Assembly (NCBI GenBank): GCA_947506155.1
Contig: CANNNV010000005.1
Coordinates: 1 to 44,918 of the forward strand
From: Methylococcaceae bacterium
GTDB taxonomy: Bacteria > Pseudomonadota > Gammaproteobacteria > Methylococcales > Methylomonadaceae
Reading direction: 5' to 3'
DNA length: 44,918 bases
Shown here: positions 13,437 to 14,144 of the stretch, piece after piece
Layout: the number at the start of each line of letters is the position of its first letter
Numbering within the stretch: position 1 is the stretch's first letter
Made by a program: the position numbers and the translations under genes
The notes under the pieces: generated by a model
What the model was told of the DNA's origin: nothing
The model's input: only the letters and a program-made list of their open reading frames with translations
The model's database searches: none

Positions 13437-14144
13437 ATGAATCAAATCATTGCGGTGGCCTTGGGCGGCTCCTTCGGCGCAGTGCTGCGCTTTTTGGTCT
13501 CCTCGGGCATTTACCAATGGCTAGGGCGCGGCTTTCCCTACGGCACTTTAGTGGTCAACATACTGGGGTCGTTTATGCTCGGTTTGCTGACCGAGTCGCT
13601 GATACAGCAACGCATCACCATCACTTTTGAATACCGTGCGGCTATTTTGGTCGGTTTCATTGGCGCATTTACCACTTTCTCGACGTTCTCGCTGGAAACT
13701 TTTTATTTGCTGGAACAGGGGAACTTAACCAAAGCCGCGTTAAATATTTTCGCCAGTATTAGCGCCTGCGTGTTGGCGATCTGGATTGGTTTGCTGTGCT
13801 CACGGTGTTTGTTTTATTATTCAGAGGGCGTTATTGCCTGGTCGAATGGGGTCATTCCGTATGCGCTGATGACTATTAATGCGCTATTCGCTTTTTTGAT
13901 CGGCCTGCTGGCGACTATTTTATTGCAGAAAGTGGCGCTATCGATGGAATACCGCGTGGTGCTGACGGTGTTGATGATCGGCATTTATTTAACCCTGTCC
14001 GGCTTATATCTGCTGCTGTATCTGGTCGAAAACAATTATTCCTTCGACACTCACACAAACCTGATGCTCGGAACTTTTGTCGCCAATGGTCTGATTTGTA
14101 TGTTTGTTATCTGGATGGGCTTGTTACTAGGCAGGCAGATATAA
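13437..14144 (+). CDS. CrcB/Fluc fluoride channel-like protein, fused tandem with a degenerate second half
   Basis: aa 1-123 are a complete Fluc unit ([46 protein letters not shown]). aa 139-235 align to the same unit from the PYGTLVVN helix onward ([31 protein letters not shown]). Confidence 0.88.

Follow-up and report, generated by a model that had tools for sequence, protein, structure and literature searches.

Bacterial Fluc (CrcB) fluoride channels are encoded by single or paired genes, while eukaryotic Fluc proteins are fused through an added helix (PMC3755343). A fusion of two four-helix dual-topology units needs such a helix to invert the second unit (PMC3755343, PMC9574504), and the small multidrug resistance (SMR) protein EmrE has been called 'evolutionarily frustrated' on account of this requirement (PMC3962082). 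In Fluc, both subunits contribute one Phe to each pore (PMC5417652, PMC4969038). In the fused eukaryotic FEX proteins one Phe has been lost per domain, in such a way that the pair serving the surviving pore is kept and the other pair is gone (PMC5417652). Charge bias offers a second point of reference: the bias of SMR singletons is centred on 0 and exceeds +/-2 in 3% of them, and more than 95% of adjacent SMR gene pairs are oppositely biased; balanced singletons mark dual-topology homodimers, and opposite pairs mark fixed antiparallel heterodimers (PMC9574504).

Below, we describe a CrcB/Fluc protein of 235 residues, encoded by an intact open reading frame at 13437-14144 on the plus strand of the window (the whole 44,918-nt stretch of DNA analyzed), which combines a complete Fluc unit with a degenerate second copy and has seven predicted transmembrane helices in a 4+3 arrangement. 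No description of a bacterial 4+3 Fluc fusion was found in the open-access literature searched, which is an incomplete sample with subscription papers mostly outside it.

The fused gene and its two halves

The crcB gene lies between orn (12889-13434, plus strand; oligoribonuclease, RNase_T E 3.8e-38), whose stop ends just before the crcB start, and serS (14245-15516, plus strand; assigned by Pfam). Neither neighbor is part of the channel. The orn gene stands beside crcB in 78 of 80 related loci and serS in 56, some of the serS copies being truncated. Directly behind serS, at 15581-17325 on the plus strand, are genes for an EcoRV-type restriction endonuclease (PF09233, E 1.4e-116) and a D12-class adenine methyltransferase, with a low G+C content (about 38% over 16001-17000); both occur near crcB in only one of the 80 related loci (L110). 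On the minus strand, a 1229-residue open reading frame at 6843-10532 resembles a multi-domain flavin-dependent oxidoreductase. Relatives of the same genus share the 235-residue protein, so the fusion is not a sequencing artefact. This genus-wide frame, together with a dN/dS of 0.12 in the second half, rules out a pseudogene or sequencing error.

The first half (D1, residues 1-125; 13437-13811, plus strand) is a complete Fluc unit comprising TM1-TM4, as the first-pass annotation had proposed. It gives a full-length match to the Pfam CRCB model (residues 5-119, E 6.5e-29), and the protein passes the cut-offs of three curated CrcB models: PF02537 (100.7 bits; cut-off 32.9), TIGR00494 (104.1; 80.45) and NF010791 (144.1; 129). 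D1 resembles bacterial Fluc proteins such as Fluc-Ec2 and Fluc-Bpe in profile, pore residues and fold. These proteins have 120-130 residues and four helices, a description to which D1 alone conforms; the fused protein differs from them in its length, its seven helices and the conserved but degenerate copy attached to D1.

The second half (D2, residues 141-235; 13857-14141, plus strand) corresponds to TM2-TM4 of a second copy. On its own it reaches only E 0.2 against Pfam and E 7e-8 against an NCBIfam CrcB model. An hhalign comparison of the D2 and D1 family profiles yields E 8.7e-26 over 105 columns, whereas a reversed-D1 control yields E 0.07, and the pairwise D2-D1 score of 142 compares with 33.5 +/- 5.8 in 500 shuffles (maximum 53). 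An origin of D2 unrelated to Fluc is thereby ruled out.

Homology between the halves had been placed from the second helix on (residue 139). The homology itself is borne out, yet it begins earlier: the D2-D1 alignment starts at F126, opposite F19, directly behind the point where single-domain relatives end (about 124 residues). Matches continue across the junction (residues 126-140; 13812-13856, plus strand), pairing F19/F126, S22/S129, G24/G131, W28/W135 and P34/P141. The stretch of 15 residues that was previously read as a linker is therefore what is left of loop 1 and of the last part of TM1, predicted from the DSSP assignments of the models to form a beta-hairpin. What copy 2 does lack, in agreement with the earlier reading, is the counterpart of D1 residues 1-18 with their GGxxGAxxR motif; given where the match begins, only the first ~18 residues of TM1 have been lost.

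Predicted fold and helix count

An AlphaFold2 model of the whole chain, built from 66 relatives (moderate confidence, with mean pLDDT 71 and pTM 0.62; D1 mostly at pLDDT 50-80), contains the seven helices that had been expected and offers no eight- or nine-helix form. TM1 (residues 2-29; 13440-13523, plus strand, as are all the helices) carries the GGxxGAxxR motif and R18, and TM2 (36-57; 13542-13607) carries T37 and N41. TM3 (64-93; 13626-13715) bears the Phe box, F81 and F84, within an invariant TTFSxF motif, and is modelled as a broken helix (64-83 and 86-93, with the break at 84-85). TM4 (97-127; 13725-13817) presents a polar track of N103, S107 and C111. The remaining helices are counterparts of TM2-TM4: TM5 (142-165; 13860-13931) keeps the TM2 Asn as N148, TM6 (170-198; 13944-14030) has L187 and L190 in place of the Phe box but retains T186, S188 and E198, and TM7 (207-234; 14055-14138) contains the conserved, low-entropy N217. 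The individual residues named in the first-pass annotation (N41/N148, F81 to L187, F84 to L190) are all correct.

In contrast to TM3, TM6 is modelled as unbroken. It stays unbroken when D2 is modelled alone, which gives three helices at pLDDT 92. Foldseek searches with the whole chain return Fluc chains as best matches (TM-score 0.70 on the target), but only over D1, so they are uninformative on how D1 and D2 pack against each other. D2 alone shows weak similarity to Fluc, with a best TM-score of 0.48 and no significant E-value. A confidently predicted fold with an unbroken TM6 and so weak a resemblance suggests that D2 is unlike a Fluc partner subunit.

A hidden full TM1 in D2, which would bring the count to eight, is ruled out by the AlphaFold2 model, by hydropathy (a best 19-residue mean of 0.66 over residues 121-141) and by the charge biases of the paired genes described below, which fit seven helices only. 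As seven is an odd number, D1 and D2 would run antiparallel within one chain. The idea that the inversion was achieved by deleting a helix (4+3) is thus supported as topology, through the modelled helix count and the agreement in sign between the D1 and D2 charge biases.

This architecture sets the protein apart from FEX. Both have two Fluc-derived halves, antiparallel by helix count and marked by degeneration, but FEX (4+1+4) has nine helices including an inversion-linker helix, whereas the fused protein has seven, no linker helix and no complete TM1 in copy 2. The protein is a Fluc by its D1 and not a FEX by its architecture. The DUF606 two-domain proteins (Lolkema et al. 2008, reviewed in PMC3962082) likewise arose by duplication and fusion in a dual-topology family; the fused Fluc instead truncated an even-numbered unit, and its product appears to be dual-topology still.

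Pore residues, charge bias and assembly

Residue counts over 114 distinct fused proteins reveal unequal constraint on the two halves. In D1, R18, T37, N41, T79, T80, F81, S82, F84 and N103 are each invariant (114/114), and position 87 is always Glu or Asp. Set against the Fluc motif GxxGGxTTFSTFxxE, the TM2 Asn and the TM1 Arg, the D1 of the window's protein differs in one motif Gly, which is Ala, and has N41 and R18 in place. D1 is no less complete than its single-domain relatives at any of the pore positions tested. D2 has diverged: the equivalent of F84 (Fluc F85) is Leu in 108 of 114 proteins and never Phe, that of F81 (Fluc F82) is Leu in 82, including the window's protein, and Phe in 13, the E88 equivalent is never Glu, and the T39 equivalent is mostly Leu or Met. 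Other D2 positions are well kept (P141 in 110 of 114, N148 in 100, G182 in 112, T186 in 96 and S188 in 108). Columns vary less in D1 (mean entropy 0.95 bits) than in D2 (1.81), and the median dN/dS among 15 Methylobacter sequences is 0.064 for D1 and 0.12 for D2. The latter value indicates that D2 is not decaying freely; it is under purifying selection.

One could suppose that D1 has ceased to be a fluoride channel and that the fusion was recruited for another role. The hallmark residues are indeed lost from the second half, and no fluoride riboswitch was found at Rfam gathering scores within the window. Against this stand the completeness of D1 and the absence from the genome (90% complete) of any CrcB match besides the fused crcB, so that the protein presumably does the Fluc job. 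We regard a change of role as very improbable.

Charge bias was counted as Lys plus Arg on the two sides of the 4+3 chain. For 106 of the 114 proteins it falls in the range -1 to +2, a near-neutrality shared with bacterial Fluc proteins; the commonest value is +2 rather than 0. Seven of the eight outliers belong to adjacent, convergent gene pairs, and the remaining one stands at +3. Such pairs of fused genes are found in four species, all of one genus other than the window's, with biases of +6/-5 (G058, locus L159), +8/-3 (G306, L169), +5/-3 (G307, L158/L167) and +5/-3 (G308, L168), and every member keeps the full D1 pore set. The G307 pair is present on two contigs, possibly from two strains. 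Paired loci supplied ten proteins in which the contributions of D1 and D2 to the bias were compared, and these have the same sign under the 4+3 loop assignment; with one helix more, they would contradict each other. The D1 tree separates the pair genes into two paralog clades, and this single duplication makes the opposite-bias pairs one evolutionary event rather than four. Methylobacter also has scattered second copies (L160, L161), whose bias of +1 each is near neutral. The window's own gene is single-copy, with no adjacent opposite-bias partner in its genome.

By these counts the family combines balanced singletons with opposite pairs, the pattern by which dual topology is recognized in SMR proteins, and it appears to show the hallmark of whole chains that pair with each other in antiparallel fashion. 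Adjacent genes of opposite bias also characterize the heterodimeric Fluc pair La1/La2 and the paired SMR proteins, although the fused partners each have seven helices, and their genes are convergent rather than in one operon.

The reading we favor, at a probability of roughly 0.6, is that of a dual-topology seven-helix protein in which the D1 of one chain and that of another form a two-pore antiparallel fluoride channel. The whole chain would insert in both orientations despite its internal antiparallel repeat, and oppositely inserted chains would meet through their complete D1 halves as an ordinary antiparallel Fluc dimer with two pores. D2, which has neither a Phe box nor a broken TM3, may then serve as an accessory three-helix bundle edging or stabilizing the dimer. 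In the four species with paired genes, two fused chains would form an obligate heterodimer. The putative function is export of fluoride down its electrochemical gradient. The more specific proposition, that a chain with a 4+3 internal antiparallel repeat continues to insert in either orientation and pairs into an antiparallel dimer of such repeats, its fused half having become structural, we hold at about even odds.

A self-contained 4+3 inverted repeat, in which D2 would pack on its own D1 in Fluc geometry and leave one working and one vestigial pore, is an unlikely alternative. The 4+3 topology does set D2 antiparallel to D1, near-neutral bias also fits a self-contained channel inserting either way, and FEX provides a precedent for the loss of pore residues from one domain (PMC5417652). 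The conservation of D2, including its Fluc-like N148, T186, S188 and N217, could mean a continued part in a pore, and the 13 proteins with Phe at the F82 position have it where it would serve the D1-lined pore. However, drift as in FEX would be expected of the D1 residues that serve only the second pore, and they are invariant, F81 included, which would here serve a dead pore. FEX lost one Phe per domain and retains one complete pore, whereas all of the degeneration in the fused protein lies in D2: D1 has both Phe residues, and D2 has neither in the window's protein and in most relatives, which departs from the joint single pore of FEX. The D2 residue of the would-be live pore is the predominant Leu noted above, and Phe-to-Leu substitution at F82 abolishes permeation (mutant table, PMC8315801). 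The unbroken TM6 and the poor structural match to Fluc also argue against such packing, and adjacent opposite-bias pairs would serve no purpose. The asymmetric one-pore or non-fluoride protein suggested by the first-pass annotation is not supported, given that D1 keeps its Phe box and core pore residues in all 114 proteins, the D2 Phe box is lost, the chains look dual-topology, and the sole adjacent pairs are oppositely biased.

Dual-topology assembly could also produce two nested antiparallel pairs, D1-D1' and D2-D2', the second of them non-conducting or conducting something else. As a matter of topology, D2 and D2' would also be antiparallel in an antiparallel dimer of chains, and D2 has conserved polar positions of its own (N148, T186/S188, Y191, E198 and N217). 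Yet in one family of the order D2, unlike D1, is strongly diverged, and we consider this arrangement less probable still than the self-contained repeat.

Distribution and origin in Methylococcales

The 4+3 fusions are conserved across most families of Methylococcales. A profile of the fused family matches 289 of 311 Methylococcales genomes, and in the loci examined most families carry the fused form, while two (f7 and f8) have single proteins of 124 residues. Among the matches listed from a 369-genome sample of the class, full-length ones come only from Methylococcales; nearly all of those from outside the order end near residue 125-150 with stops. A D2 motif scan of 85,462 species detected 88 relatives, and the 80 listed are Methylococcales or unclassified bacteria. 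The window's best named relatives are Methylobacter and other Methylococcales, which places it among Methylobacter-like methanotrophs.

The D1 tree, which rests on few columns and leaves many forks open, places 65 of 66 fused rows in one group (support 94/94) that excludes f7 and f8. The remaining row (G046) is placed with the outgroup, though on weak support; its 226-residue protein (L059) sits on a long branch and has a tail behind D1 of similar length with little visible Fluc similarity. Two shortened proteins (L055 and L155) fall inside the fused group. In the former (G057), a CrcB protein of 160 residues, the second half is cut to roughly one helix after D1. In another genome (G011, L026) the fused crcB is interrupted by two TGA codons and a shifted frame, and another subfamily's copy is intact elsewhere in the genome.

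On the simplest reading of these sequences, the fusion apparently arose once. The match starts at F126, right behind the end of the single-domain form, which suggests as the simplest history that a tandem crcB duplicate was joined to the first copy by a deletion that took out the stop codon of copy 1 together with the initial codons of copy 2.

In place of the added helix that such fusions are said to need, this Methylococcales-wide family took the other route and lost one. If the chains do insert both ways and assemble as antiparallel dimers with D2 in a structural role, dual-topology families would have a third possible result of gene fusion, next to the unfused dimer and the self-contained inverted repeat. 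The family allows a test of how inverted-repeat membrane proteins start, and of the fate of a half made redundant because the fused chains go on pairing with one another; the oppositely biased 4+3 pairs provide a ready orientation control.
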